From Halorubrum salinum (GTDB lineage Archaea > Halobacteriota > Halobacteria > Halobacteriales > Haloferacaceae), in contig NZ_JANHDO010000001.1 in the NCBI RefSeq assembly GCF_024494575.1, positions 496,001 to 560,000 of the forward strand: DNA of 64,000 nt, read 5' to 3'. Positions 5,442 through 20,032 of this stretch are shown here, piece by piece. The translations under genes were made by a program, and so were the position numbers. Under the pieces are notes generated by a model, which saw only the letters and a program-made list of their open reading frames with translations, had not been told where the DNA came from and did not search any database. How positions within the stretch are numbered: position 1 is the stretch's first letter; every line of letters begins with the position of its first letter.

Positions 5442-6206
5442 TCAGTACACAAGCTCGCCGTCGATGAACTGCCGCGTGCGCTCGTCGGAGGGATCCTCGA
5501 AGACGACCTCCGTCGGAGCCATCTCGGTGACCCCCTGATCCAGTAACACCGCGACGCGGTCGGCGACCCGACGCGCCTGATGCATGTCGTGTGTCGCCAC
5601 GACGACGCCGATGTCCCGGTCGCGCGCCGCGTCGATCGCCGATTCGATGACGGCGGTGTTTCGCGGATCGAGGTCGGAGGTCGGTTCATCGAGCAGCAGG
5701 ACGTCGGGCCGGTACGCCAGCGCGCGAGCGAAGGAGACGCGCTGTGCCTCGCCGCCAGAGAGCGACCCGGCGTGCTGGTCGAGCGCGTCCGCGAGCCCGA
5801 CGACGTCGAGCGACTCGTGGACCGCGTCGGTCGTCGAGTTCGCTCCGACCAGCGACGCGACGCCGTTTCGGAGCCGGTCGCTCCACGGTCTCCGGACTCG
5901 GAGCCCGTACTCGACGTTGCGGGCGACGGAGGCGTCGAAGAGGCTCGCCTCCTGAAACACCATCCCGACGCGCCGCCGCAGCGAGAGCCGCTCCGACTCG
6001 TCTGTGTCCCAGACGCTCGTTCCGTCGAGCGTGACGGTTCCCTCGTCGGGTTCGACAGACAGCGCGAGCAGCCTGAGAAGCGTGCTCTTCCCGACGCCCG
6101 AGGGACCGATGACGGCGACGACCTCTCCCGCGTCGACGTCGACGGAGAGGTCGTCGAAGACGGGGTCTGTGCCGTACGCCTTCGTCACCCCGGTCGCGCG
6201 GAGCAT
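5442..6206 (-). CDS. tupC: Tungstate/molybdate ABC transporter ATPase
   Basis: A 254-residue ABC ATP-binding subunit. Walker A is GPSGVGKST, the signature is LSGGEAQRVS and Walker B is VLLLDEPTSDLD followed by a switch His (ATHDMHQ). It should power oxyanion uptake with the permease and binding protein encoded just upstream. The permease stop overlaps this start (TGATG), so translation is coupled. A GTG start one codon earlier is equally possible. Substrate is inferred from the TupA-like binding protein, not from the ATPase itself. Confidence 0.85.
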   Translation of the reverse strand: MLRATGVTKAYGTDPVFDDLSVDVDAGEVVAVIGPSGVGKSTLLRLLALSVEPDEGTVTLDGTSVWDTDESERLSLRRRVGMVFQEASLFDASVARNVEYGLRVRRPWSDRLRNGVASLVGANSTTDAVHESLDVVGLADALDQHAGSLSGGEAQRVSFARALAYRPDVLLLDEPTSDLDPRNTAVIESAIDAARDRDIGVVVATHDMHQARRVADRVAVLLDQGVTEMAPTEVVFEDPSDERTRQFIDGELVY

Positions 6207-6928
6207 CACGGCTGTACCCCCCGATCGCCGAAGCGGACGACCACGGCGTTGACCGTCAACACGAGCGCGACGAGCACGGCCCCGAGGACCATCGCCGTCT
6301 CGTACTGTCCCTGTCTCGCCTCCAACTGGATGGCGGTCGTGAGCGTCCGCGTCTTCGAGATGCCGTCCGCGCTCGTGATGTTCCCGCCGACGATGAGCAC
6401 GGAGCCGACCTCGCTTATCGCGCGGCCGAACCCGGCCAAGACGGCCGTCGCGATGCCGTACCTCGCTTCCTTGACGACCACGAGCGCGACGTCGAAGCGG
6501 GTACCGCCAAGCGCGCGCGCGGCGTCGCGAACGGACTCGTCCACGCCGGTGACGGCGGCGAGGCTGATCGCCGTGATCGGGGGCGTCGCGAGCACGAACT
6601 GTGACATGATCATCGCCTGTTTGGTGAAGATGAGTTCGAGCGAGCCGAGCGGCCCCTGATTCGAGACGGCGAACAACACGACCAGTCCGACGACCACGCT
6701 CGGGAACCCCATCCCGGTGTTGATGACCGACTTCACGAACTGCTTTCCGGGGAAGTCGGTGAGCCCCACGACGATCGCGACCGGAATGCTGAACAGCGTG
6801 CTCAACGCCACGGCGGCGAGGCTGACGTACAGCGAGACGTAGATGACACTGGAGACGTACCCCTCCCTGAACGGCGACTCGAAAAGCGCCGGCACGAACG
6901 GTACTATCGGGTCGAGCGGCACGCTCAC
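6206..6928 (-). CDS. tupB: Tungstate/molybdate ABC transporter permease
   Basis: A 240-residue inner-membrane permease with about five to six hydrophobic helices. The cytoplasmic coupling loop is EAA-like ([24 protein letters not shown], quoted here only as a region near residues 135-158). [13 protein letters not shown] and [16 protein letters not shown] match TupB/molybdate permeases. The GTG start overlaps the tupA stop. It is the middle gene of a three-gene operon with tightly overlapping ends. Confidence 0.85.
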
Positions 6929-7917
6929 TCGTCAGTGGACTCGCTACTCCAGCCTTCCGGAACGTACTGCTGGAAGTCGGGGTTCTCCGAAACCGCCTCC
7001 GGGAAGAACAGCTGTTCGCCGTTCACCTGGTACTCCGAGATGGCGTCTTGCACGTCGGGACTCGTGATCCAGCCGATGTACGCCATCGCGAGGTCGTAGT
7101 TCGCGTTGTCGTGCACGCCGGGGTTGACGGCCATGATCCCGTACGGGTTCGCGAGGATCTCCGGGCCGTCCTCGATCGGTCCCTGAACGAGGATCGTCAG
7201 GTCGATCTCCGACCGCTGGGAGATGAACGTCCCGCGGTCCGAGAGCGTGTACGCGCCCTGCTGGTTCGCGATGTTCAGCGCCTCGCCCATCCCCGTCCCG
7301 GTCTCCTGGTACCAGTCGCCGCCCGGGTCGGTGCCGGCGGCCTCCCAGAGGTTGAGTTCCTTGGTGTGGGTCCCGGAGTTGTCGCCGCGCGAGACGAACT
7401 GGGCTTCGGCCTCGGCGATGGCCGTGAGCGCGTCGGTCGCCGACTCCATCCCCTGAATTCCGGCCGGGTCGTCTTCGGGCCCGACGATCACGAAGTCGTT
7501 GAACATCAGGTCGCGGCGGTTGATCCCGTACCCGTTGCGCATGAACTCGTCTTCGAGCCCGCGGGCGTGGACCATCACCACGTCCGAGTCGCCGTTGCGC
7601 GCCGACTCTAAGGCCGCGCCGGTTCCCTGTGCGACCGCGTCGACGGACACGTCGTACATCTCCTCGAAGTCCCCGTGGATCTCGTCCAGTAGTCCCGTGT
7701 CGTAGGTGCTCGTCGTCGTCGTGAGCGTGAGCGTCTCGCCCGCGACGCCCGCCTCGTCGCTGGCGTCGCTCTCTCCGCCGTCGCTCCCGTCCCCGCTGTC
7801 GGTCCCGTCTCCACCGTCGCCGCCACCGGATCCCCCGTTCGACTGTGAACATCCAGCCGTGCTCGCGACCGCCCCAGCGCCGATCGCCGCGATGAACTGC
7901 CGCCGTTGTATCGTCAT
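6925..7917 (-). CDS. tupA: Tungstate/molybdate-binding lipoprotein
   Basis: A 330-residue extracellular solute-binding lipoprotein. RR at residues 5-6 and the lipobox Cys23 (STAGC) give a Tat lipoprotein. A Gly/Asp/Ser linker runs to about residue 60. The TTTTS motif at residues 66-70, followed by TYDTGLLDE, is the TupA oxyanion-binding signature. [13 protein letters not shown] and [12 protein letters not shown] are also typical of the family. The ATG at 7917 is chosen because a TATA box centred at 7943 lies about 27 nt upstream, implying a leaderless start there. The operon abuts denitrification genes, and the molybdenum enzyme nitrate reductase would be a plausible beneficiary (inference). 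Confidence 0.87.
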
Positions 7918-7937
7918 AGACACACCGTTGGACTGAT

Positions 7938-8081: not shown

Positions 8082-8093
8082 CGAACGTGTTCG
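8082..8093. promoter_or_regulatory. Denitrification-type palindrome, site A
   Basis: CGAACGTGTTCG, a CGAAC-N2-GTTCG inverted repeat. Its centre is 47 nt upstream of the ATG at 8135 and about 11 bp upstream of a TATA-like position (cgtatc, 8105-8110). The same sequence recurs before halocyanin and nosZ, with variants before three other genes in this block. A similar palindrome upstream of denitrification promoters in Haloferax volcanii is linked to the regulator NarO (from memory). Confidence 0.75.
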
Positions 8094-8134
8094 CGACGGT
8101 CGACACGTATCGGGGACGCCGACGGTCACGTGCG

Positions 8135-8677
8135 ATGTCAGAACTCGACGTCAGAGAGATTCCGCCGAACGAGCGACACGACCGTATCCACGACGCCTTC
8201 GCGGACGTAGATCCCGGCGAGTCGCTCACGATCGTCAACGACCACGATCCGAAACCGCTCTTCTACGAGCTGTCGGCCGAGGTGCCGGCGTTCGACGACG
8301 AGGGGTACGCCGTCGAGCGCGAGGGTCCGGAACGGTTCGTCGCCGAGCTACCGAAGGTCGCGACGGACGGGTCCGCCGACATCGTCCGAATAGACGCGCT
8401 CTCCGGCGAGCCTCACGCGGAGGTGTTCCCCGGACGCGAGCCGAAGACGGTCCGGCTCGCGCTGTCGGCCGGCGAGGGGGTGCCCGCACACGACCATCCC
8501 GGGAGTGCGGTGCTGTTTCACGCGCTTGAGGGGTCGTTCGACGTGCGCGTCGACGACGAAACACACCGCGTCGAGGCCGGTGAACTCCTCCGATTCGACG
8601 GCGATCGAACGGTCGAGCCGACCGCGCGCGAGGACGGCGCCGCGCTCATCGTGCTGACCGAACGGTCTGATTCGTAA
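8135..8677 (+). CDS. DUF2249-cupin fusion protein
   Basis: A 180-residue soluble protein with two parts. The N-terminal ~75 residues are a DUF2249 domain (LDVREIPPNERHD, LTIVNDHDPKPLFYEL). The C-terminal ~80 residues are a cupin with AHDHPGSAVLFHALEG and a second barrel motif EAGELLRF; the His residues could bind a metal. DUF2249 proteins recur with nitrite/NO-metabolism genes, but their biochemical role is not established. The start at 8135 sits about 27 nt after the inferred TATA box and 47 nt after palindrome A, so it is probably part of the same anaerobic regulon as nosZ. Confidence 0.8.
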   Translation: MSELDVREIPPNERHDRIHDAFADVDPGESLTIVNDHDPKPLFYELSAEVPAFDDEGYAVEREGPERFVAELPKVATDGSADIVRIDALSGEPHAEVFPGREPKTVRLALSAGEGVPAHDHPGSAVLFHALEGSFDVRVDDETHRVEAGELLRFDGDRTVEPTAREDGAALIVLTERSDS

Positions 8678-8726
8678 TCACCGGCCGCGCGTGGCGCGTC
8701 ACGCGCACCGAAGATGCGCTCCGGCC

Positions 8727-8738
8727 CGAACGTGTTCG
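8727..8738. promoter_or_regulatory. Denitrification-type palindrome, site B
   Basis: CGAACGTGTTCG, identical to sites A and C. It lies about 76 nt upstream of the halocyanin ATG. The more distant position would imply a short untranslated leader; gttacaaa near 8771 is a possible TATA element. Confidence 0.72.
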
Positions 8739-8808
8739 TCGCGTTCTCGCAGGCCGGATCAGCGCATGGCCCGTTACAAACACGACACCACAATCACCGA
8801 CCGACTAC

Positions 8809-9357
8809 ATGACGAACGATACGCGACTCGACCGACGACGGTTCGTACAGGCGACGACTGCCGCCGGCGCGACGCTCCTGCTCGCCGGATGTTCCGGTGG
8901 GGGCGACGGCGGTGACGGCGGCGACAGTTCCGGCGGGAGCGATGGGAGTGACGGCGGTGACAGCTCCGGCGGGAGCGACGGTTCCGGCGGCTCCGGCAAC
9001 ACCGCGTACCTCAGTGAAGAGCCGGACTACGGCGGCTGGTTCGATGGCGCGAACAACTACGACCAGACGGTCGACGCCACGGGACAGGACGAGGTCACCG
9101 TCGACGTCGGCGCGGGAGACGGTCTCTCGTTCGGTCCGGCCGCGGTGGCGGTGAGCCCGGGGACGACCGTCGTCTGGGAGTGGACCGGCGAGGGTGGCGG
9201 CCACAACGTCGCCGCCGAGTCCGGCGACTTCGAGAGCGAAACGGTGAGCGAAGCGGGTCACACGCTCGAACATACCTTCGAAGAGTCGGGGATCCACGAG
9301 TACGTCTGCACCCCCCACGAGGCCGTCGGCATGAAGGGTGCAGTCGTCGTGCAGTGA
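8809..9357 (+). CDS. Halocyanin-type blue copper lipoprotein
   Basis: A 182-residue membrane-anchored cupredoxin and probable electron carrier. The signal has RRRF at 9-12 and lipobox Cys28 (LLLAGC), then a Gly/Ser/Asp linker to about residue 64. The copper ligands are visible: His132 (GGGHN), Cys167, His170 and Met175 in YVCTPHEAVGM. Upstream of nosZ it is a natural electron donor to N2O reductase, taking the place of cytochrome c (inference from context). An oligo-T terminator follows the gene. Confidence 0.92.
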   Translation: MTNDTRLDRRRFVQATTAAGATLLLAGCSGGGDGGDGGDSSGGSDGSDGGDSSGGSDGSGGSGNTAYLSEEPDYGGWFDGANNYDQTVDATGQDEVTVDVGAGDGLSFGPAAVAVSPGTTVVWEWTGEGGGHNVAAESGDFESETVSEAGHTLEHTFEESGIHEYVCTPHEAVGMKGAVVVQ

Positions 9358-9398
9358 CGCCGCCGACGGACTGAGCGGTTGCATCGTCGTCACTCTCC

Positions 9399-9404
9399 TT
9401 TTTT
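9399..9404 (+). terminator. Oligo-T terminator after halocyanin
   Basis: A run of six T (cctttttta) about 40 nt after the halocyanin stop, typical of archaeal intrinsic termination. It suggests halocyanin is a separate transcript from nosZ. Confidence 0.55.
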
Positions 9405-9512
9405 ACGGCGCGCGTGACGGATTCGACGACTGCGATCCGTCGGTTGCGACGCGGTATCGATCGTCACGTCGGGACGATCTGTCTCTGCGTCTCCTCACTC
9501 CTACTTGCGTCC

Positions 9513-9524
9513 CGAACGTGTTCG
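9513..9524. promoter_or_regulatory. Denitrification-type palindrome, site C (nosZ)
   Basis: CGAACGTGTTCG located 8-10 bp upstream of a TATA-like cctatcgta (9532-9540). The same palindrome-to-TATA spacing is seen at site A. The nosZ ATG is about 98 nt downstream, so the nosZ mRNA should have an untranslated leader of roughly 55 nt. Confidence 0.75.
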
Positions 9525-9621
9525 CGCGCTTCCTATCGTATCGCAAGCCGCTGGACCAGCTATATGGGTGACCCAGCAACCGCCAACTGTCGCGAGAACA
9601 CGCCACTCGCGGAGACCACCT

Positions 9622-11541
9622 ATGTCACAGGACACACGACGGTCCACGGACGCGGGAGAATCGGACGGCCAGCCGACCGGCGACGACGGCTTCGACTCGA
9701 TGCTCCCCGGACTCCGCCGGCGAGACTTCATGAAGGCCGGCGCCGCGATCGGCGGGCTGAGCGGGCTCGCGGGCTGTACCAGCCTACTGAGCGACGAGAA
9801 CACTGTCGACGGGGCAGCGTCGGCTAGCGGGGTCGACAACTCCGTCCCGCCGGGCGAACACGATGAGTACTACGCGTTCCTCAGTGGGGGCCAGCAGGGC
9901 GACGTGCGGGTGTACGGCCTCCCGTCGATGCGCGAACTCATCCGCATCCCGGTGTTCAACCGGGACGCCAGCCAGGGCTACGGCCACGACGACGAGAGCC
10001 AGCAGATGCTCGAAGAGTCTGGCGGATACACCTGGGGCGACACGCACCACCCGCGGATCAGCCAGACCGACGGGGACTACGACGGCCGGTTCGCGTACGT
10101 CAACGACAAGGCGAACGGCCGGATGGCTCGCATCGACCTGACGTACTTCGAGACGGACGCCATCGTTGACATCCCGAACCAGCAGGGGACTCACGGTGCC
10201 TGCGCGCAGTTGCCGGACACCGATCTGATATTCGGCGTCGGAGAGTTCCGAACGCCGATCCCCAACGACGGGAGCGGTGAACTCCACGACCCCGACTCGT
10301 ACGGCTCCGTCCTCGCCGCGATCAACCCCGAGTCGATGAACGTCGAGTGGGAGGTGCTCATCGACGGCAACATGGACAACGGCGACGGGAGCAAAGAGGG
10401 TCGGTACTTCTTCACGAGCGCGTACAACAGCGAGGAGGCCGCGACCGAATCGGGGATGACGCGCGCCGACCGCGACAACGTGAAGGCGTTCGACATCCCG
10501 CGGATCGAGGCCGCGGTCGAGGCCGGCGAGTACGAGACGATAAACGAGGTGCCGGTCGTCGACGGTCGGCAGGACAGCCCGCTCAACCAGGGCGACGAAC
10601 CGATCGTCCACTACATCCCGACGCCGAAGAGCCCGCACGGGGTCAGCGTCACGCCGGACAACGAGTACGTGATCGTCAGCGGGAAGCTCGACCCGACCGC
10701 GTCGGTCATCGACATCGACGCGATCGACGAGGTCGACGACCCGACGGACGCGATCGTCGGCCAGCCGAAGCTCGGTCTGGGACCGCTCCACACCGCCTAC
10801 GACGGGCGTGGCCACGCGTACACCACGCTGTTCATCGACTCGCAGGTCGTCAAGTGGGACATCGAGGAGGCAGTCGAGGCAGAGGCGCGCTCGGAGAGCC
10901 CGGTCATCGAGAAAATCGACGTGCACTACAACCCCGGCCACCTGATCGCCGCGGAGTCGTACACCGAAAACCCCGCGGGCGACTGGCTCATCTCCCTGAA
11001 CAAGCTGTCGAAAGACCGGTTCCTCCCGGTCGGGCCGCAACACCCGGAGAACGACCAGCTGATCTACATCGGCGACGACGAGTCGGGGATGGAGCTCGTG
11101 AAAGACTCGCCCGCACAGGCCGAGCCGCACGACGCGTCGATCTGCCACAAGTCGAAGCTCGATCCGGCGAAGACGTACGACCCCGACGACCTCGAACTCG
11201 ACTACACCGACGAGGGCGAGGAGACGATGGAGCGCGTCGAAGAGGACCGCGTCGAGATCGAGATGTACTCGACGCGGAACCACTACGGCTTCCAGGAGAT
11301 GACGGTTCAGGAGGGTGACACGGTCGAGATGCAGGTGACGAACATCGAGACCACGAGCGACATGCTCCACTCGGTGGCGATCCCCGAACACGACATCAAC
11401 ATGCGGGTCGCCCCCCAGGAGACGCGGAAGGCGACGTTCACCGTCGACGACCCCGGTGTCTACTGGATCTACTGCGCGCACTTCTGCAGCGCGCTGCACT
11501 TAGAGATGCGCTCGCGGCTGATCGTTGAACCGGAGGGATAA
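9622..11541 (+). CDS. nosZ: Nitrous-oxide reductase NosZ
   Basis: A 639-residue copper enzyme reducing N2O to N2, exported by Tat (RRRDFMKAG at 32-40, AGC following). The beta-propeller N-terminal part carries His-rich segments expected to hold the CuZ cluster (DTHHP, GPLHTAYDGRGH, PHGVSVTPDN, PHDASICH). The C-terminal cupredoxin domain has a complete CuA site: Cys618, Cys622, His626 and Met629 within YCAHFCSALHLEM, plus His in MLHSVAIPEH. Length is normal. The first downstream gene follows after three bases, so nosZ heads an operon with the NosB-like, nosD, nosF and nosY genes. Confidence 0.97.
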   Translation: MSQDTRRSTDAGESDGQPTGDDGFDSMLPGLRRRDFMKAGAAIGGLSGLAGCTSLLSDENTVDGAASASGVDNSVPPGEHDEYYAFLSGGQQGDVRVYGLPSMRELIRIPVFNRDASQGYGHDDESQQMLEESGGYTWGDTHHPRISQTDGDYDGRFAYVNDKANGRMARIDLTYFETDAIVDIPNQQGTHGACAQLPDTDLIFGVGEFRTPIPNDGSGELHDPDSYGSVLAAINPESMNVEWEVLIDGNMDNGDGSKEGRYFFTSAYNSEEAATESGMTRADRDNVKAFDIPRIEAAVEAGEYETINEVPVVDGRQDSPLNQGDEPIVHYIPTPKSPHGVSVTPDNEYVIVSGKLDPTASVIDIDAIDEVDDPTDAIVGQPKLGLGPLHTAYDGRGHAYTTLFIDSQVVKWDIEEAVEAEARSESPVIEKIDVHYNPGHLIAAESYTENPAGDWLISLNKLSKDRFLPVGPQHPENDQLIYIGDDESGMELVKDSPAQAEPHDASICHKSKLDPAKTYDPDDLELDYTDEGEETMERVEEDRVEIEMYSTRNHYGFQEMTVQEGDTVEMQVTNIETTSDMLHSVAIPEHDINMRVAPQETRKATFTVDDPGVYWIYCAHFCSALHLEMRSRLIVEPEG

Positions 11542-11544
11542 GCC

Positions 11545-12336
11545 ATGACATCGTCGCTCGCGCGGCTGGCCGAGATCCGACGCGCGCTCCCGCTCGCAGC
11601 GGCGGCGCTGCTCGTCGGCGCGCTGCTGGTTCCGGTGTGGCAGATCACGCTCACTGCGCCGCAGTATCCCAGTCAGGAACTGCTCATCGAACTGTACGCG
11701 TACCCGCGTCTGGGCGGCAACTTCGCCGAGGTACAGGGGCTCAACAAGTACGCCGGGTTCTACTACCCGGACCCGGTGTACGTCGACCCGAACTACGAGG
11801 TCCAAGAGGGGGCCATCCGCGTTCCGGAATGGCTGCTCGGACCGATCGTGTTCGTCGGCCTCGCGCTCACCGGGGCCTTCGTCGCGTTCGCGCCGACCGT
11901 CCGAAAGCTCAAGGCCGGACTCACGGCGCAGTTCGTCGGGACGATCGCCGTCTTCGTCGGCATGTTCGCGTTCATCCAGTACCGGCTCTACCAGGCCGGC
12001 CACGCGCTCGATCCGGACGCGCCGTTGCGCGGCATCGACGGGTTCACCCCGCCCCTCTTGGGTCCCTACGAGGTCGCAAACATCAGCGGCTTCGCGTGGT
12101 TCGGTCCCGGCGGGTACATGGCCGTCCTCGCCGCCGTGCTGCTCGCGGTCGCGTACCTCGCACGAGACACCGAGGCGACGGTCGCCGAACTCCCCGCGCT
12201 AGCCCGAGCGCTCCCGGGCGAGATCCGAGACGCGCTCGCGCGTCGCCGCGACGGCAGTCCCGGTTCGAACCGCGGCAGTGACGGCTCCGATCGGAAGCGT
12301 AGCGACGACCGCGACGGGGGGAGTCATGCCGGGTAG
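11545..12336 (+). CDS. NosB-like membrane protein of the nos operon
   Basis: A 263-residue protein with about four hydrophobic helices (near 14-32, 94-114, 128-146 and 188-208) and a charged, Ser/Arg-rich tail. The segment VPVWQITLTAPQYPSQELLI followed by GLNKYAGFYY resembles the small membrane protein encoded next to nosZ in clade II N2O reducers (NosB-type), recalled from memory. Its function is unproven; a role in maturation of NosZ or electron supply is possible. It begins three bases after nosZ and its end overlaps nosD by 11 bases, so it is firmly within the operon. Confidence 0.72.
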   Translation: MTSSLARLAEIRRALPLAAAALLVGALLVPVWQITLTAPQYPSQELLIELYAYPRLGGNFAEVQGLNKYAGFYYPDPVYVDPNYEVQEGAIRVPEWLLGPIVFVGLALTGAFVAFAPTVRKLKAGLTAQFVGTIAVFVGMFAFIQYRLYQAGHALDPDAPLRGIDGFTPPLLGPYEVANISGFAWFGPGGYMAVLAAVLLAVAYLARDTEATVAELPALARALPGEIRDALARRRDGSPGSNRGSDGSDRKRSDDRDGGSHAG

Positions 12337-13840
12337 CCGCGCCGAGACCGGCTTCCTCGCCGCGGCCTGTGTCGTCGCCGCGCTCGCGCTCGTGTTGCCG
12401 GTCGCCGCCGGGGCCGCAGACGCGAGCGCCTCCACCGCTGACGCCGGGCGTGCCGCGAACGGAACCGGCGCTGCCACCGGGTTCGACGTGCCTACCGACG
12501 TCGCGGCGACCGACGTGACCGCGCCCGGCCACGACGGCACCGCGACCGTCGACGGCGAGTCGTTCGAGTCCGCACAGGCCGCGATAGACGCCGCAGCGCC
12601 CGGCGAGACGGTCACTCTCGACGGACGGTTCGACGAGCGCGTCAACGCGAGCGTCGACGGCGTGCAGCTCGTCGCGGGCGCGGACGGGGCCGTGATCGAC
12701 GGCGGCGGCGAGGGACGCGTTCTGACCGTGAGCGGCGAGAACGTCACGGTCTCCGGGGTGTGGGTGCGCGGGTCCGGCAGCGACCTCGGTACGGAGGACG
12801 CCGGCGTGTTCATCGCGGGCGGCGACGCTCGGATCGAGTCGGTCAGGATCACAGACACCGCCTACGGGATCTGGATCGACGGGGTCGACGAGGCCGTCAT
12901 CGACGACGTGCGGATCGACGGCCGCGAGGAGGTCTACCCCGTGACCAACCGCGGCAACGGGATCCACCTCTACGAGACGAACGGCACCGTCGTCCGCGGC
13001 AGCGAAATCGCGAACGTTCGCGACGGGATCTACTTCCAGTGGGCGACCGAGGTGCTCGCCGCGAACAACACGATCCGGGACGCGCGGTACGGCGTCCACT
13101 ACATGTACTCGGACGACAACCGCCTCGTCGACAACGTCGCCGCCGATAACGGCGTCGGCTACGCGCTGATGGTGAGCGAGGGGCTCGACGTGCGGAACAA
13201 CGTCGCCTTACGTAACGGCGGTACGAGCGGCCACGGAATCATGGCGAAAGACATCGAGGAGTCGACGATCGCCGGCAACCATCTCGTCGCGAACCGGCAC
13301 GGCCTGTACCTGTACAACGCGCAGGACAACCGGGTCGTCGACAACCTGCTGTACCACAACGGGGTCGGGGTCCACAGCGCCGCCGAGAGCAACAACGCGG
13401 TCGTCGCCGGCAACAGCTTCGTCGCCAACGACCGCGCCGCACGGACCGCCCGCAACTCGCTCGCCGTCTGGAACGGGACCGACCGCGGCAACTACTGGTC
13501 CGGTGCGCGAGTCGCCGACCGCGACGGCGACGGGACGAGCGAGATCCGCCACCGCCCGATCGGACTCGTCGAGAACCTCGTAGACGCCCATCCGCAGGCG
13601 GCCGTCTTCGCCGACAGCCCGGCGTTCGAGGCGGTTCGGCTCGCCGAGAGTTCGTTCCCGGTGATCGAGTCGCCGGGTATCGTCGACCGCCGTCCCTTGG
13701 CCGAGCCGAACCACGACTGGCGCGTCTACGCCCCGGACGACGAGGCGGCCGAGCCGAGAGGTGGAGAGACGACTACGACGGCGAGCGACGACACCGACCG
13801 CGGCGGGAACCGAACCGCAGACACGGAGGGACACCAATGA
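12326..13840 (+). CDS. nosD: NosD copper-site maturation protein
   Basis: A 504-residue exported protein with a signal peptide (about residues 1-30, hydrophobic core AAACVVAALALVLPVAAGA). A right-handed beta-helix of PbH1/CASH repeats follows, with many N-x-I/V turns such as NGIHLYETNGTVVRGSE and NRHGLYLYNAQDNRVVDN. NosD acts with the NosF-NosY ABC complex in assembling the CuZ site of NosZ. The ATG at 12326 overlaps the upstream gene and is preceded by a purine-rich ggggg/gag element. The last four bases overlap nosF (ATGA). A Thr/Asp-rich C-terminal tail replaces the anchor sometimes seen elsewhere. Confidence 0.92.
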   Translation: MPGSRAETGFLAAACVVAALALVLPVAAGAADASASTADAGRAANGTGAATGFDVPTDVAATDVTAPGHDGTATVDGESFESAQAAIDAAAPGETVTLDGRFDERVNASVDGVQLVAGADGAVIDGGGEGRVLTVSGENVTVSGVWVRGSGSDLGTEDAGVFIAGGDARIESVRITDTAYGIWIDGVDEAVIDDVRIDGREEVYPVTNRGNGIHLYETNGTVVRGSEIANVRDGIYFQWATEVLAANNTIRDARYGVHYMYSDDNRLVDNVAADNGVGYALMVSEGLDVRNNVALRNGGTSGHGIMAKDIEESTIAGNHLVANRHGLYLYNAQDNRVVDNLLYHNGVGVHSAAESNNAVVAGNSFVANDRAARTARNSLAVWNGTDRGNYWSGARVADRDGDGTSEIRHRPIGLVENLVDAHPQAAVFADSPAFEAVRLAESSFPVIESPGIVDRRPLAEPNHDWRVYAPDDEAAEPRGGETTTTASDDTDRGGNRTADTEGHQ

Positions 13841-14628
13841 GGATCGACGCCACTGACGTTCACAAGACGTACGGGGACGTGACCGCTCTCGACGGCCTCT
13901 CGCTGTCGATCCCGAGCGGATCGACGTTCGGTGTCCTCGGCACCAACGGTGCCGGGAAGTCGACGCTGTTCCGGCTGCTCGTCGGCCACGATCGCCCCGA
14001 CGCCGGCACGGTCGCGGTCGGGGGCACCGACGTGACGGACGACGGCCGTCGGATCCGCGAGCTGGTCGGCTACCTCCCCGAACACGTCGGCTTCCCCGAC
14101 GGGCTCACCGGTCGCGAGGTGCTCGGTTTCCACTCGCGGGTCCGCGGGCTTCCCCGTGACGGCCGCGTCGCGGACGCGATCGACCGCGTCGGTCTCGCGC
14201 CGGAGGAGGCCGACCGCCGCGTCTCGGGGTACTCGAACGGGATGTGCCGGCGGCTCGGGCTGGCGTCGGTGCTGTTGCCCGACCCCGACGTGCTCGTCTT
14301 GGACGAGCCGACCGCCGGGCTCGACCCTCGCGGCGTCGACGAGTTCCACGCCATCATCGAGGAGGTCACGTCGTCGTCGGACGCGACGGTGGTTTTCTGC
14401 TCGCACGTCCTCCCTGAGGTTGAACGGCTCTGTGATCGCGCAGCGGTGCTCCACGAGGGCCGAGTTCACGCGGCCGGACCGATCGACGCACTCGCGGCCG
14501 ACGCTGCGGACGACGACACCGGCGCGGCGAACCGCGCAGACGACCGCCACCGCGGCGGTCTCCGCGCCGCGTTCCGCGCGGCCGTGACAGACGCGTCCGC
14601 CGATGAGCCGTCGGAGGTGGCACCATGA
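13837..14628 (+). CDS. nosF: NosF ABC-transporter ATPase
   Basis: A 263-residue ATPase with Walker A GTNGAGKST, signature SGYSNGMCRRLG, Walker B VLVLDEPTAG and H-loop CSHVLPEVERLC. It powers the NosFY transporter needed for NosZ copper-cluster assembly. Start and stop overlap nosD and nosY by ATGA, indicating coupled translation. The C-terminal ~35 residues form a charged extension after the ABC fold. Confidence 0.92.
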   Translation: MRIDATDVHKTYGDVTALDGLSLSIPSGSTFGVLGTNGAGKSTLFRLLVGHDRPDAGTVAVGGTDVTDDGRRIRELVGYLPEHVGFPDGLTGREVLGFHSRVRGLPRDGRVADAIDRVGLAPEEADRRVSGYSNGMCRRLGLASVLLPDPDVLVLDEPTAGLDPRGVDEFHAIIEEVTSSSDATVVFCSHVLPEVERLCDRAAVLHEGRVHAAGPIDALAADAADDDTGAANRADDRHRGGLRAAFRAAVTDASADEPSEVAP

Positions 14629-15599
14629 CGGGCCCCGTCGACCCCGACGAGAGGGCGTCGGACCGACGGACGCCGGACGAGCGAGAGTCTGCTCCCGACG
14701 AGACGGGGACGCGACCCGACGGCGGGCACGCCGGCGCGACGGTCGAGGCGTCGACGACGCCGGTGACGGCCGCGAACGCCGCGGCGGTCCGCGGTTCGGT
14801 TCGGCGGGTCCTGACGGTCGCCGTGACGGAGTACCGGCTCGCGGTCCGGAGCCGCTGGGCCCTCGCGCTGACCGGGCTGTTCGTCGTCTTCGGCGCGATG
14901 ATCCTGACCTTCAGCGGCTCCGCGCTCGGTCCCGACGGGGCCGGGCGGGTCGTGGCGTCACTGACGAGTCTCGCCGCCTACCTCGTCCCGCTCGCGGCGC
15001 TCGCGCTCGGCTACGACGCGGTCGTCGGACGCGAAGACGAGGGATGGCTCGCGGTCACGTTCTCGCTTCCCGTGCGCCGGAGCGAGGTCGTCGTCGGGAC
15101 GTACCTCGGGCGGCTGGCAGTGCTCGCTGGGGCGACGGTCCTCGGATTCGGGTTCAGCGGCGTCCTGATCGTCCGCGAGTTCGGGATCGGCGCGTGGTCC
15201 GCGTTTCTCGGGTTCCTCCTCGGCGCGGTCGCCGTGGGATCCGCGTTCCTCGCGGTCGCACTGCTTTTGTCGACGGTCGTCCGCGAGAAGACCCACGCGC
15301 TGGGCGCGGCGCTGCTGGTGTGGGTCTGGTTCGTCTTGATCCACGACCTGCTCGCGCTCGGATTGGTCGCCGCGTTCGAACTGCCGGACATCGCGCTCAC
15401 GGCCTTCGTGCTGTCGAACCCGGTGAGCGCGTTCCGCGTGCTCGTCTTGAGCGGGCTCGGCGCTGCGGCTGGCGGCGGCTTCACCGCCCTCCTCGTCGAC
15501 AGCGGGCTCTCGACCGCCTCTATCACGTTCGCGCTGATCGCGTGGTGTCTCGTCCCGGTCGCGGTCGCGGCGCGGTTTGTCCGTCGACGGCGGCTCTGA
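14625..15599 (+). CDS. nosY: NosY ABC-transporter permease
   Basis: A 324-residue permease of the ABC-2/NosY type. A long acidic, disordered-looking N-terminus (~55 residues) precedes six hydrophobic helices. EYRLAVRSRWALALTGLF and LGYDAVVGREDEGWLAVTFS are family-like. It partners NosF. It is the last gene of the operon; no nosL or other copper chaperone follows before the opposite-strand regulator. Confidence 0.9.
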   Translation: MTGPVDPDERASDRRTPDERESAPDETGTRPDGGHAGATVEASTTPVTAANAAAVRGSVRRVLTVAVTEYRLAVRSRWALALTGLFVVFGAMILTFSGSALGPDGAGRVVASLTSLAAYLVPLAALALGYDAVVGREDEGWLAVTFSLPVRRSEVVVGTYLGRLAVLAGATVLGFGFSGVLIVREFGIGAWSAFLGFLLGAVAVGSAFLAVALLLSTVVREKTHALGAALLVWVWFVLIHDLLALGLVAAFELPDIALTAFVLSNPVSAFRVLVLSGLGAAAGGGFTALLVDSGLSTASITFALIAWCLVPVAVAARFVRRRRL

Positions 15600-15636
15600 T
15601 TTTCCGGGTCGTTTCACTCGACCGGGTCGGGTCGCG

Positions 15637-16326
15637 TCACTGGACGCGATCGACGCCTTCGGGGCCGTCGTCGATCGATTCAAAGTCGACCGGGCGGCGC
15701 GGGAGGTCGTCGACGAACTCTCGGACGACGGTGCGCTCGACGCGCTGGAGCACTTCGCTACAGGTCGATTTGGCGATGCCGACGTGGTCGGCCACCTCGG
15801 TGAGCGTGCATTCTCGGGGGACGTCGTAGTAGCCGCGGTCGACCGCCTCGAAGAGGACTTCTCGCTGGCGCGCCGTGAGAGACCCGCCGGGGTTCACGCG
15901 CTGCTGGACGTAGTCGACCTCGAACTCCGCGCCGACGTCGCGGAGCGCGTCGCCGAACTTCGCCACGCGTTCGTGCGGGCCGGTGATGTCGACGCGGGCG
16001 ACGCCGTCACAGATCTCGACGGGCATCTCGATCGGGACGCCCGCTCGGCGCGCAACCGTCTGTAACAGCGGGACGAGTGCCGCTACTTGGAGCGTCAGCA
16101 TGCCGTCGTCCTCGGCCATCACCGAAACGTCAGTGATCGTGTCGTGTTCCTCGACCGCGTCGAGGATCGGGTCCACGTCGTCGGCGGTGACCCGAACCAG
16201 CGCGAACCCGCCCCCGTCGTCGGGCGTCGCGGTCAGCACCTGAAACCGCGCGTTCGGGAACTCGCGGGAGATGTCGCCGACCCACGGGCCGTCCGGGATG
16301 TCAACTCGGAGACGTGCCTGTGCCAT
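15637..16326 (-). CDS. Bat-type HTH transcriptional regulator
   Basis: A 229-residue regulator of the bacterio-opsin-activator family. The C-terminal HTH_10 domain spans about 150-205 (SLTARQREVLFEAVDRGYY, then TLTEVADHVGIAKSTCSEVL). The N-terminal half lacks a recognised ligand domain and has no cysteine cluster, arguing against direct Fe-S sensing. It lies between nosY and the heme-copper-oxidase-like gene, in the middle of the palindrome-bearing units, so it is a candidate local regulator, but nothing shows that it binds the palindrome. Its own upstream region lacks the palindrome. Confidence 0.85.
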   Translation of the reverse strand: MAQARLRVDIPDGPWVGDISREFPNARFQVLTATPDDGGGFALVRVTADDVDPILDAVEEHDTITDVSVMAEDDGMLTLQVAALVPLLQTVARRAGVPIEMPVEICDGVARVDITGPHERVAKFGDALRDVGAEFEVDYVQQRVNPGGSLTARQREVLFEAVDRGYYDVPRECTLTEVADHVGIAKSTCSEVLQRVERTVVREFVDDLPRRPVDFESIDDGPEGVDRVQ

Positions 16327-16412
16327 GGTACCGCTTCGTCGTCGCGGTGGAAGTACCTTCGGCTCCGCAGTTTCGTCGCTCGTTCTCGGCGATACACGGC
16401 ATCGAGCGGCCG

Positions 16413-17861
16413 TTATCCGTCCGACTCGCCGCGAAGCGCACCCGGTGCGTGCTCGACCACGACGCGCGCGACGTTTGCGACGAAGAGCGCGACACCGAGG
16501 GCGACGAGGACGAGTCCAGCGCGGACGACGAGACCGATCGACGTCGCGACGGGAACGCTCCCGACGCCCGCACCGCCTGCGATGTCCAGACCCCCAGCGA
16601 CACCCGCCTCACCGGCGACACCCACAACGACCAGCAGGGCTCCTGTGAGCGTACACCACAGGTCCGTCCTAGCGATCCGCGCGTCGTAGAGGTCGTCGAT
16701 CATCGGGACTTGTTCGAGTCCAACGCGGTCCGCGTACCGCTCCAGCCAGACGATGAACGGAACCACGTGGTACAGCGTTCCGACAACGACGAAGCCGACG
16801 AGGGCCGCGAACAGCGGCAGCCCCAGCGTCGGGTGGCCGAACCGGACCGCGGCTCCCGTCGCACTGTCGGTCCACGCGAGCGCGGCGCTCGTCGCCCAGG
16901 CGACCGCGGCGACGCCGACCACCGCGTACCGAGAGACCATCGGCGTCGTCGCTCCCGAGGCAGCGAGGACGCGTCGCAGCAGCACCGCGCCGGCCAACCC
17001 CGTTCCGAGCGCGACCGCGACACCACCGACGGTCGCGACGCCTTCGACGCCCGTCAGCCGTCCGCCAGCGAGGACGAGCACGCCGGTCGGCGCGGCGACC
17101 GACTCCAACTGCGTCGCGACTCGATCGACCGCGGTCGGCTGCTCTCGCGTGAACATCGGACCGAGCTGATAGAGCGCAGCGACGACGGTCGTGAGTACGC
17201 CGCCGAGTACCGCGAGCGTGACGTGCGCGTCCGCGACCGCGGACCGGGAGAGCCCGCCGGAGCCGACGACCCCGGCGACAGCGTCCGGCCACCCGAGCCC
17301 GGTCGCCGGAAACAGTCCGTACCGATAGTCGATCGCGAGGAGCCACCCGAGCGACGCCGCCAGCGCGAGGTAGCCGACCGCGGCCGCGAAGTGCCTCTCG
17401 GTGACGTCGAGCGGGCGCGCCCGCCACAGGGTTGCGAGCAGGTTCGCGGCGAACGCCCACACCCCGGCGAGCAGCACGGTCGCGAACGCGGCGGTCGCGG
17501 CGGGCCGTCCGATCCAGAGCAGGCCGGCGAAGCCGGCGACGCCCACCGCAGACAGCGTCAGATCCAACGACGCGAGGCGGTCGGAGTACAGCTCGACACC
17601 GGCCCACACCGGGACGAACTGCGTCATCGCGCCGAAGATGGTGATCCCGACCCATCCGGCAAACAGCAGGTGTGCGACCGCGACGCCGTCGAGTCCCGCC
17701 GCGAGGAACGACCCGCCGGTCGCCGCGAGCGACCCCGCGGTCGAGCCGACCCCAACGGCGGTCCCGAGAGCGAGGAACCCGAACCCGACGACGAAGTGTC
17801 GCAGCGGGATCGTCGTGGGGGGCGCTGCGTCCGTCGAGAGATCGCCTCGCAGATCCTCCAT
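16413..17861 (-). CDS. Heme-copper-oxidase subunit I-like membrane protein
   Basis: A 482-residue protein of about 12 transmembrane helices. Two related segments, AHLLFAGWVGITIFGAMTQF and AHVTLAVLGG (continuing to a Tyr-Gln-Leu-Gly-Pro), look like the helix pattern AHxxL-GW/G-xxxIxG-P found in short cbb3/NorB-like subunit I relatives. YHVVPFIVWLERYADR adds a further His. The usual dense set of copper-B histidines is not evident, so catalysis is uncertain. Possible roles are heme binding, quinol or NO handling, or assembly. The ATG at 17861 has a palindrome centred about 45 nt upstream and sits opposite a divergent DUF2249 gene. I do not know a characterised homologue. Confidence 0.65.
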   Translation of the reverse strand: MEDLRGDLSTDAAPPTTIPLRHFVVGFGFLALGTAVGVGSTAGSLAATGGSFLAAGLDGVAVAHLLFAGWVGITIFGAMTQFVPVWAGVELYSDRLASLDLTLSAVGVAGFAGLLWIGRPAATAAFATVLLAGVWAFAANLLATLWRARPLDVTERHFAAAVGYLALAASLGWLLAIDYRYGLFPATGLGWPDAVAGVVGSGGLSRSAVADAHVTLAVLGGVLTTVVAALYQLGPMFTREQPTAVDRVATQLESVAAPTGVLVLAGGRLTGVEGVATVGGVAVALGTGLAGAVLLRRVLAASGATTPMVSRYAVVGVAAVAWATSAALAWTDSATGAAVRFGHPTLGLPLFAALVGFVVVGTLYHVVPFIVWLERYADRVGLEQVPMIDDLYDARIARTDLWCTLTGALLVVVGVAGEAGVAGGLDIAGGAGVGSVPVATSIGLVVRAGLVLVALGVALFVANVARVVVEHAPGALRGESDG

Positions 17862-17899
17862 ACCGAACGGATCTCCCTCGACGCTCCTCAACCCGTCTC

Positions 17900-17911
17900 C
17901 GAACATATTCG
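17900..17911. promoter_or_regulatory. Denitrification-type palindrome, site D
   Basis: CGAACATATTCG, a perfect palindrome centred 44-45 nt upstream of the minus-strand ATG at 17861. It forms one half of a divergent promoter with site E. Confidence 0.7.
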
Positions 17912-17938
17912 CCTGCCCGGAGATTCGAGAGGGCCCGC

Positions 17939-17950
17939 TGAACATGTTCG
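17939..17950. promoter_or_regulatory. Denitrification-type palindrome, site E
   Basis: TGAACATGTTCG, whose inner ten bases GAACATGTTC are a perfect palindrome. It is centred about 45 nt upstream of the plus-strand ATG at 17989. This spacing is the main reason for choosing that ATG over in-frame ATGs at 17944 (inside the site) and 17968. Confidence 0.7.
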
Positions 17951-17988
17951 TCACAAGCGACCCGGTGATGGGACGCGTCGTCTCACAC

Positions 17989-18303
17989 ATGGGATCCGAA
18001 ACCGTCGATTCGACGGCGATCGAACGGGCGGTAGCCGAGCGGACGGACGCGCCGACCGGAGGTGAGACCGAGTCTCTCGACGTCCGCGAACTTGGACCGC
18101 CCGAACCGCTCCGGAAGACGCTAGAACGGATCGAGGCGCTCCCGGAGGAAGGGGTCTTGCTCCAGTACAACGACCGGTCCCCGAAGTTCCTCTTCCCGCG
18201 GCTCGACGAGCGGGGGTTCGCGTACGCCGCAGTCGAAACCGACGCGACAGACGCGGTCGTCACGGCGATTTGGCCCGACGGATCCGAGGGGGTGGAGTCG
18301 TGA
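17989..18303 (+). CDS. DUF2249 domain protein
   Basis: A 104-residue soluble protein, essentially one DUF2249 domain (LDVRELGPPEPLRKTLERI, LLQYNDRSPKFLFPRL), related to the N-terminal half of the cupin fusion at 8135. The family is widespread in denitrification and NO-related clusters, without an agreed function. Its stop overlaps the GTG start of the next gene (GTGA), so the two are translated together. Confidence 0.78.
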   Translation: MGSETVDSTAIERAVAERTDAPTGGETESLDVRELGPPEPLRKTLERIEALPEEGVLLQYNDRSPKFLFPRLDERGFAYAAVETDATDAVVTAIWPDGSEGVES

Positions 18304-18770
18304 GTCTCCTCGGCGGGTCCGAGCCGGAGTTCGATCCGGTCGATGCATTCACCCCCGACCACCTCCCGGAGCCTGGACCATTCGTCCGGGAACACGACGT
18401 GTTGGCCGGTGCGCGCCACGCCACGGTCCACGAGCACGTCACCGACGCCTTCGAGGAGCACGACGTGTACGACGCCACCTTCGGCTACAACCTCGCCCGG
18501 CTCAGTCTCGACCCGAGGCATCCAGACGCGGGGTTCCGGTACGCCGAGGCCGCGGACAACGGGAGCGACGACGTGGTCCTCCGCGTCGAGTTCACGCCGA
18601 CGACCGCGTTCTGCCCGCAGGCGGAACCGCTCGCGGTGGGGGCGCTCCGGGCACTGCGTTCGACTTCCGAAATCACCCACGACGCGGTCGAACTCCGGAT
18701 CGCCGAGCGGGCCGACAACGCCGACCAGATCAACGAGCGGCTCGCGACGCTCTCGGCCGATGGTCCCTGA
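18300..18770 (+). CDS. DUF59-like small protein of the denitrification block
   Basis: A 156-residue cytoplasmic protein starting with GTG that overlaps the preceding stop. The C-terminal two thirds (VLRVEFTPTTAFCPQAEPLA, then VGALRAL) resemble the MIP18/DUF59 fold used in Fe-S and other cofactor maturation, including a single Cys in the position typical of that fold. The similarity is recognised by eye only. It sits between a DUF2249 protein and a radical SAM enzyme, consistent with a cofactor-assembly role (inference). An ATG ten codons upstream is an alternative start. Confidence 0.6.
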   Translation: MSLLGGSEPEFDPVDAFTPDHLPEPGPFVREHDVLAGARHATVHEHVTDAFEEHDVYDATFGYNLARLSLDPRHPDAGFRYAEAADNGSDDVVLRVEFTPTTAFCPQAEPLAVGALRALRSTSEITHDAVELRIAERADNADQINERLATLSADGP

Positions 18771-18877
18771 TGCTCCCCGATGGTCCCCGATGATCCCGCG
18801 GCGGGTGCGGAGGTCGACACCTCGCGACGCGAGCGGGTGGTCGCTCGGACGGAAATCCGCGTCTCGCTCCGCCCTGA

Positions 18878-18889
18878 GGAACACGTTCG
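18878..18889. promoter_or_regulatory. Denitrification-type palindrome, site F
   Basis: GGAACACGTTCG, one mismatch from the CGAAC-N2-GTTCG pattern. It is centred 48-49 nt upstream of the radical SAM ATG at 18932, with a possible TATA element cccaaag about 10 bp downstream. Confidence 0.65.
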
Positions 18890-18931: not shown

Positions 18932-20032
18932 ATGTTCGACGACATCGACCCGACTCGGCGGCCGCTCGTCCTCGTCTGGGAGGTGACACAGGCCTGCGGG
19001 CTCGCCTGTCGCCACTGCCGGGCGAACGCCCGTCCAGAGCGCCATCCCGACGAACTCACGACCGCGGAGGGAAAGCGACTGCTGGAGGACGCGGCCGAGT
19101 TCGGTGACAACCAGCTGATCGTGCTCTCCGGAGGCGACCCGCTCGTCCGCGACGACCTCATCGAACTGGCCGCACACGGCGATGATTTGGGTCACCGGAT
19201 GACGATCACGCCGAGCGGAACCCGGTCGTTGACGCCGGATCTGGTCTGCGCTCTCGAAGCCGCCGGGATCTGCCGGATGGCGCTCAGCCTCGACGGCTCG
19301 ACCCGCGAGCGCCACGACGACTTCCGCGGCGAGGAGAGCTTCGAGGACACGATGAGGGCCGCGCGCGCGGCGCGTGACGCCGGGATCCCCCTCCAGATCA
19401 ACACCACCGTTTGCGCGGACACGGTCGCGGACCTCCCCGCGATCCGGGACCGCGTCCGCGAGTTGGGTGCGGTCCTCTGGAGCGTCTTCTTCCTCGTCCC
19501 GGTCGGGCGCGGTCGCGTGCTCGATCCCGTCTCACCTGAGCGCGCCGAGGAGACGATGGCGTGGCTCCACGAGGTCTCCGAAGCCGAGGCGTTCGGCGTC
19601 AAGACCACGGAGGCACCCTTCTACCGACGGGTCGGACTCCAGCGAGCGAGCGCGGGAGAGACCGACAGTGCCGCCGAACGCCGCGGCGGGATCACGGCCG
19701 GCCGCGGGTTTGCGTTCGTCAGCCACACCGGCGAGGTGTATCCGTCCGGGTTCCTGCCAGCCTCCGCCGGCAACGTCCGCGATCGGGACCTCGTCGACGT
19801 GTACCGGAACGCCGACCTGTTCGAGTCGCTACGCGATCCCGACGCCTTCGCCGGGAAGTGCGGAGTCTGCGAGTTCCGACAGGTCTGTGGCGGCAGTCGG
19901 TCCCGAGCGTACGCTGCCACCGGCGACCCGCTGGAGAGTGACCCGCTCTGTTCGTACGTCCCCGAGGAGTACGACGGTCCGCTCCCGAACCGACAGACGA
20001 CAACCGGAGAGCGGAGTGAACCGGCGGAGTGA
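18932..20032 (+). CDS. Radical SAM/SPASM protein, NirJ/AhbD-like
   Basis: A 366-residue radical SAM enzyme. The [4Fe-4S]-SAM motif is Cys22-x3-Cys26-x2-Cys29 in TQACGLACRHC, followed by LSGGDPLVRDDL (the GGE-like motif). The C-terminal SPASM domain shows CGVCEFRQVCGG and a later Cys in PLCSYVP for auxiliary clusters. The closest known relatives act in heme pathways (AhbD, heme d1 synthase NirJ), and haloarchaeal paralogues occur beside nitrite-reductase genes. Exact substrate is unknown. Normal length. It has its own palindrome-bearing promoter and a T-rich stretch (ctttctttt, about 20043-20051) after the stop. Confidence 0.85.
   Translation: MFDDIDPTRRPLVLVWEVTQACGLACRHCRANARPERHPDELTTAEGKRLLEDAAEFGDNQLIVLSGGDPLVRDDLIELAAHGDDLGHRMTITPSGTRSLTPDLVCALEAAGICRMALSLDGSTRERHDDFRGEESFEDTMRAARAARDAGIPLQINTTVCADTVADLPAIRDRVRELGAVLWSVFFLVPVGRGRVLDPVSPERAEETMAWLHEVSEAEAFGVKTTEAPFYRRVGLQRASAGETDSAAERRGGITAGRGFAFVSHTGEVYPSGFLPASAGNVRDRDLVDVYRNADLFESLRDPDAFAGKCGVCEFRQVCGGSRSRAYAATGDPLESDPLCSYVPEEYDGPLPNRQTTTGERSEPAE

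Follow-up and report, generated by a model that had tools for sequence, protein, structure and literature searches.

A conserved palindrome precedes six transcription units around the nosZ gene of Halorubrum salinum

The 64-kb stretch of Halorubrum salinum DNA analysed here (contig NZ_JANHDO010000001.1, positions 496,001 to 560,000; hereafter the window) contains a cluster of genes around nosZ, the gene for nitrous oxide (N2O) reductase. Six copies of a 12-bp palindrome lie in this cluster, ahead of genes for a DUF2249-cupin protein, a halocyanin, the nos operon, a heme-copper-oxidase-like membrane protein, a small DUF2249 protein and a radical SAM protein (Table 1). A sequence-only reading of this DNA had listed six palindromes, each ahead of its own gene unit, and all were found where it had placed them. 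The palindromes of the first three units are exact copies of CGAACGTGTTCG, and no other exact CGAACNNGTTCG occurs within the window. The remaining three deviate at one position: CGAACATATTCG at 17900, TGAACATGTTCG at 17939 and GGAACACGTTCG at 18878. The palindrome at 17900 reads CGAATATGTTCG in the direction of the oxidase-like gene.

Table 1. Palindromes, promoter elements and genes of the cluster (window coordinates unless a locus is named)
Feature	Position	Strand	Placement or family match
Palindrome CGAACGTGTTCG	8082..8093	+	DUF2249-cupin promoter; centre 47.5 nt before ATG 8135
Palindrome CGAACGTGTTCG	8727..8738	+	halocyanin promoter; centre 76.5 nt before ATG 8809
Palindrome CGAACGTGTTCG	9513..9524	+	nos operon promoter; centre 103.5 nt before NosZ ATG 9622
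Palindrome CGAATATGTTCG	17900..17911	-	oxidase-like gene promoter; centre 44.5 nt before ATG 17861
Palindrome TGAACATGTTCG	17939..17950	+	small DUF2249 gene promoter; centre 44.5 nt before ATG 17989
Palindrome GGAACACGTTCG	18878..18889	+	radical SAM promoter; centre 48.5 nt before ATG 18932
Conserved AT-rich element TTACAAA	8774..8780	+	centred ~44.5 nt past halocyanin palindrome centre
Conserved AT-rich element CTATATG (TATATA in relatives)	9560..9566	+	44.5-45.5 nt past nos palindrome centre
DUF2249 + cupin protein, 180 amino acids	8135..8677	+	PF10006 79.7 bits; PF07883 35.2 bits
Halocyanin	8809..9357	+	TIGR03102 142.9 bits, above cut-off
NosZ, twin-arginine translocation (TAT)-type N2O reductase	9622..11541	+	TIGR04244 704.5 bits, cut-off 625
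Rest of nos operon: membrane protein, NosD-, NosF- and NosY-like genes	11545..15599	+	adjacent or overlapping frames, one direction
BAT/HTH_10-type regulator, candidate activator	15637..16326	-	PF04967 65.8 bits; PF15915 32.7 bits
Heme-copper-oxidase-like membrane protein	16413..17861	-	PF00115 (COX1) in 7 of 9 family members, best 5e-9
Small DUF2249 protein, 104 amino acids	17989..18303	+	PF10006 55.1 bits
DUF59/MIP18-like protein	18300..18770	+	weak PF01883 match, E 0.11, below cut-off
Radical SAM/SPASM protein	18932..20032	+	TIGR04053 475.4 bits, cut-off 395
NSWSAN-motif small proteins	L217 18995-19300; L211 13105-13407; L214 7257-7559

Four of the six palindrome centres lie 44–49 nt from the start codon, as the sequence-only reading had noted. 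Its proposal that the sites belong to leaderless promoters fits these four, and does not extend to halocyanin and nosZ, where a distance of about 45 nt leads to an AT-rich element and not to a start codon. In these two promoters TTACAA or TATATA occupies position +44.5/45.5 from the centre, the place taken by the start codon in the other promoters; the element may be a transcription start or a TATA box. The ATG at 9564 was considered as a leaderless nosZ start and rejected: it is part of the AT-rich element, which reads TATATA in relatives, and is not a conserved start.

The sites are kept in other species. Across five sets of Halorubrum promoters, identity was 0.95–0.99 in the palindrome columns and 0.53–0.68 in the preceding 25 nt. 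All 10 full-length orthologs of the DUF2249-cupin gene have the palindrome at 45–49 nt, including a different family at 51–58% identity. Upstream of halocyanin genes a site was found at 13 of 18 loci, nearly always at 68–77 nt, and a site with at most one mismatch lies within 250 nt of nosZ at 28 of 48 haloarchaeal loci (background 5.9%). The closest nosZ matches were Halorubrum species, H. laminariae being nearest by NosZ (96%). For the oxidase-like gene, 18 of 30 orthologs, belonging to several families, have a site with at most one mismatch at 38–62 nt, against a background of 1.8%; in all 18 the first ATG lies 43.5–45.5 nt from the centre, and their promoters contain no recurrent AT-rich box between palindrome and ATG. 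The oxidase-like gene of family f17 genomes has no palindrome, and its start abuts or overlaps the end of another reading frame in an operon-like arrangement. For the small DUF2249 gene, 6 Halorubrum loci have the site in the same place (44 nt). The radical SAM site was found 48–52 nt upstream in all retrieved Halorubrum orthologs (49–50 nt in six named Halorubrum loci) and in a genome of another genus (G076); elsewhere it is patchy. Comparison of orthologs thus showed conservation of the site position relative to the gene, not merely synteny. Since the sites are kept at the same position upstream of orthologs, they can be regarded as shared control switches of one regulon, and the grouping of the six palindromes in the sequence-only reading is strongly supported. 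The palindromes are real, conserved and functional-looking, and belong to a published type of regulon with added members.

The match to the motif alone would also fit chance, CG-rich palindromes being frequent in a haloarchaeal genome of 68% GC. In the 2.73-Mb genome there are 704 one-mismatch and 37 exact matches to CGAACNNGTTCG, and at any given spacing about 1% of background genes have a one-mismatch site. Because one-mismatch forms are this common, loose motif counts were dropped as evidence and the case is built on clustering and conservation. GAACRYGTTC occurs 15 times in the 464 kb sampled, and 5 of the 15 fall in the 11-kb cluster (expected 0.24; Poisson P ~ 6e-6). About 400 kb of genome stretches served as background. 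Two-mismatch matches in the window numbered 156, compared with 98 ± 9 in shuffled sequence. Six exact genomic sites have a GT/AC or AT core; four are at promoters, three of them in the cluster and the fourth ahead of a ThiS-like gene, and the other two are inside reading frames. Eight ATGs were found 34–44 nt past a site, compared with roughly 2–3 in most other bins; four of the eight belong to the window's own sites. A reversed-pattern control (0 versus 8) was discarded as unfair because CG-rich words are common, and the spacing bins and the gene-start background were taken instead. Against this clustering and the position-specific conservation in other genera, chance has practically no probability, and it is the conservation that rules it out.

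Sites of the same type occur outside the window. The norZ gene (C1:1004945-1007236, minus strand) has a one-mismatch site, CGAACATGTTGG, 45.5 nt upstream; for norZ relatives, exact sites were found at 72–73 nt in L211 and L214 and none in L217. A ThiS-family gene at C1:657 kb (656.9–657.3 kb; L196 8879-9310) is preceded by an exact palindrome at 47 nt, and an exact palindrome lies upstream of 3 of 3 orthologs in other genomes, at about 45–54 nt by hand count. The ThiS/MoaD-like protein ends in FCC rather than GG, and in L213 its gene is divergent from the oxidase-like gene. A search for nirK gave no match in this genome, so the nirK-upstream site of the denitrification regulon cannot apply here; the nos (9513) and norZ sites are present. 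With nor and nosZ present and nirK absent, the system is best described as a regulon of nitric oxide (NO) and N2O reduction, not as proven full denitrification; the earlier label 'denitrification' is too broad for this genome.

Taken together, we consider it probable that the six palindromes act as operators of a single conserved haloarchaeal NO/N2O-reduction regulon, and that the BAT/HTH_10 protein of the cluster, rather than NarO, is its likeliest activator. A dimer of the activator would bind the 12-bp palindrome CGAAY-RY-RTTCG, centred about 44–49 nt ahead of a leaderless start or, at nosZ and halocyanin, of the AT-rich element. It would be positioned next to the zone of the B recognition element (BRE) and TATA box of promoters with poor TATA boxes, and in response to falling oxygen or to nitrogen oxides it may recruit the basal transcription machinery. 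The regulon of this species would also take in norZ and the ThiS-like gene. In a more specific form the cluster BAT/HTH_10 protein, not NarO, reads the palindrome and drives TATA-poor leaderless promoters at a fixed spacing of about 44.5 nt, and the radical SAM, the non-canonical heme-copper-oxidase-like and the ThiS-like proteins serve NO/N2O respiration; this form we put forward tentatively, as possible rather than probable.

The candidate regulator scored above the Pfam cut-offs for HTH_10 (23.1 bits) and BAT (25.8 bits), and had no GAF or PAS match. In relatives the BAT-type gene has its own upstream palindrome at 15 of 21 loci. Among 20 gene neighbourhoods inspected in other genomes, 13 also contained it, mostly with a palindrome 46–67 nt upstream. 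Beside norZ (C1:1004.3–1004.9 kb, L046) lies another gene for a BAT-type regulator, which a one-base frameshift splits in this assembly; this reflects either a decayed paralogue or a sequencing error. Several observations weigh against the cluster protein as activator. Its gene in this genome has no upstream palindrome, not even with 3 mismatches, and the 20 neighbourhoods had been picked for other member genes, not at random, so that the count is no unbiased measure of co-occurrence. Halorubrum lipolyticum and H. aidingense have the BAT gene and nosZ and no site at nosZ, and several Natrialbaceae-type nosZ loci have the site and no BAT gene within 10 kb. For this species, activation through the palindrome and binding to it by the BAT protein are argued from genomics and are unproven. 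The palindrome upstream of the BAT gene in relatives indicates that the gene is at least a target, and would also suit a regulator encoded elsewhere, for example an activator or repressor that responds to NO, metal or redox state, with the BAT gene as a regulated neighbour. The nosZ loci without a BAT gene nearby and the several other HTH_10 regulators of the genome point the same way. However, the BAT-type gene recurs inside such clusters in several families, and in the Haloferax mediterranei cluster, too, there is a gene for an HTH_10 activator that has the motif (PMC11218638). We regard an unlinked regulator as rather unlikely, though it deserves to be kept in mind.

Another rival takes up the link to NarO mentioned in the sequence-only reading, namely that the palindrome is the site of NarO, a cysteine-containing oxygen sensor which would drive the regulon. 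NarO-type regulators are said to carry a CXnCXCX7C motif. CXCX7C was absent from all 10 HTH_10 proteins of this genome (6-contig assembly), and two of them considered as NarO, L047 and L048, were rejected for this reason. The gene of L047 adjoins one that reads like a copper P-type ATPase. A NarO-like profile gave a partial match of 85 bits, compared with 227–246 bits in Halorubrum genomes having a NarO-like protein, and the best NarO-like match was 28% identical over part of the query. Full-length NarO-like proteins do exist in some Halorubrum (G004, G044, G110, G120 and G052), but the same sites are present in genomes without a full-length NarO-like match, e.g. G076, G084, G124 and G118. In G044 (C9:764-766 kb) and G052 (C1:1979-1981 kb) the NarO-like gene adjoins a radical-SAM-like gene that is distantly paralogous to that of the window. 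In Haloferax volcanii denitrification is under the control of NarO, and nar, nir, nor and nos promoters in several genera, Halorubrum among them, were noted to have a similar motif (Hattori 2016, cited in PMC10062603). H. mediterranei, however, does not have NarO and nevertheless uses the motif (PMC10062603). The NarO link is not supported in this genome, and NarO as the reader of these sites appears quite improbable. The BAT-type regulator at 15637-16326 is by its linkage the better candidate activator, still unproven.

Among the member genes, the order of the nos operon is kept in Halorubrum; the NosD, NosF and NosY names were given from sequence appearance, not by family search. The oxidase-like protein of the window itself matched no Pfam family, PF00115 COX1 included. 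It has conserved histidines at 64, 157, 213 and 365, and its AlphaFold2 model, made from a single sequence, was unusable (predicted local distance difference test score, pLDDT, 44.7). The DUF59-like gene is probably co-transcribed with the preceding DUF2249 gene, which it overlaps by 4 nt. Its model reached a pLDDT of 74, and the Foldseek matches included several DUF59/CIAO2B/FAM96A folds, none of them significant; the best was a chain of a CIAO2B complex at E 0.035 (not significant). Sequence searches of the PDB with the oxidase-like, DUF59-like and BAT families brought up no meaningful match. Neither the oxidase-like nor the DUF59-like gene turned up in the nos clusters of the other Halorubrum that were examined, and both therefore look inserted or transferred. 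The oxidase-like protein is nearer to family f17 (mostly 50–53%) than to its congeners (46–48%). Insertion of a segment with its own palindrome would explain why two sites lie 39 bp apart, at 17900 and 17939, and why the BAT gene has lost the shared palindrome ahead of it. The radical SAM protein scored 332 bits with the AhbD model, under the cut-off of 500. A protein of about 100 amino acids with an NSWSAN motif and no Pfam match is repeatedly encoded next to the radical SAM gene and has a palindrome close by. Tungstate-type ATP-binding cassette transporter genes (window 5442-7923, minus strand) lie directly upstream of the cluster; their binding protein is TupA-like but under the family cut-off, and no exact palindrome was found before them.

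In haloarchaeal activation of the Bat/GvpE type the activator site lies next to the BRE/TATA region, and Bat is an HTH_10/BAT-domain protein. The system described here resembles it in having a site just upstream of the basal promoter and an HTH_10/BAT-domain protein, and differs in the lack of a GAF or PAS match in the cluster protein and in having a 12-bp palindrome as its site. The Haloferax volcanii NarO regulon likewise comprises genes for anaerobic denitrification that have a related promoter element (Hattori 2016, as far as cited in PMC10062603), whereas this genome has no NarO-motif protein.

The closest parallel is the denitrification motif of H. mediterranei, CGAAYATDKTYG (PMC10062603, PMC11218638), whose mutation lowered nosp and norp promoter activity (PMC10062603). 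The two papers list 82–83 motif promoters in all. By RNA sequencing, 25 promoters with the motif were linked to genes that are differentially expressed, including DUF2249 genes and a BAT-type activator, and the motif-bearing DUF2249 genes, halocyanins and nos operon were induced in denitrification; the motif-binding protein was called undisclosed (PMC11218638). Both species have the same type of 12-bp palindrome before nos, nor, DUF2249 and halocyanin genes, and a BAT-type activator gene. Compared by eye with CGAAYATDKTYG, the site at 17900 is exact, those at 8082, 8727, 9513 and 17939 have one mismatch and that at 18878 has two; the core here is mostly GT/AC, not AT. In four promoters of the window the centre is 44–49 nt from the ATG, whereas the Haloferax nir, nor and nos motif lies at 66–79 nt, and unlike H. 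mediterranei this genome has no nirK. The sequence-only reading had taken the membership of the genes as the new part. For DUF2249, halocyanin and nos it had been reported before (PMC11218638); the TIGR04053 radical SAM, COX1-like and ThiS-like members are not named in the main texts of PMC10062603 and PMC11218638. What is new is several of the member genes, the tight spacing rule and the evidence that NarO, the usually credited regulator, is missing here. The conserved sites set the TIGR04053 radical SAM, COX1-like, DUF2249-cupin and ThiS-like genes firmly in salt-lake NO/N2O reduction. A regulon-bearing genome with no NarO-motif protein and with one cluster-linked candidate makes the question of which protein reads the motif testable.

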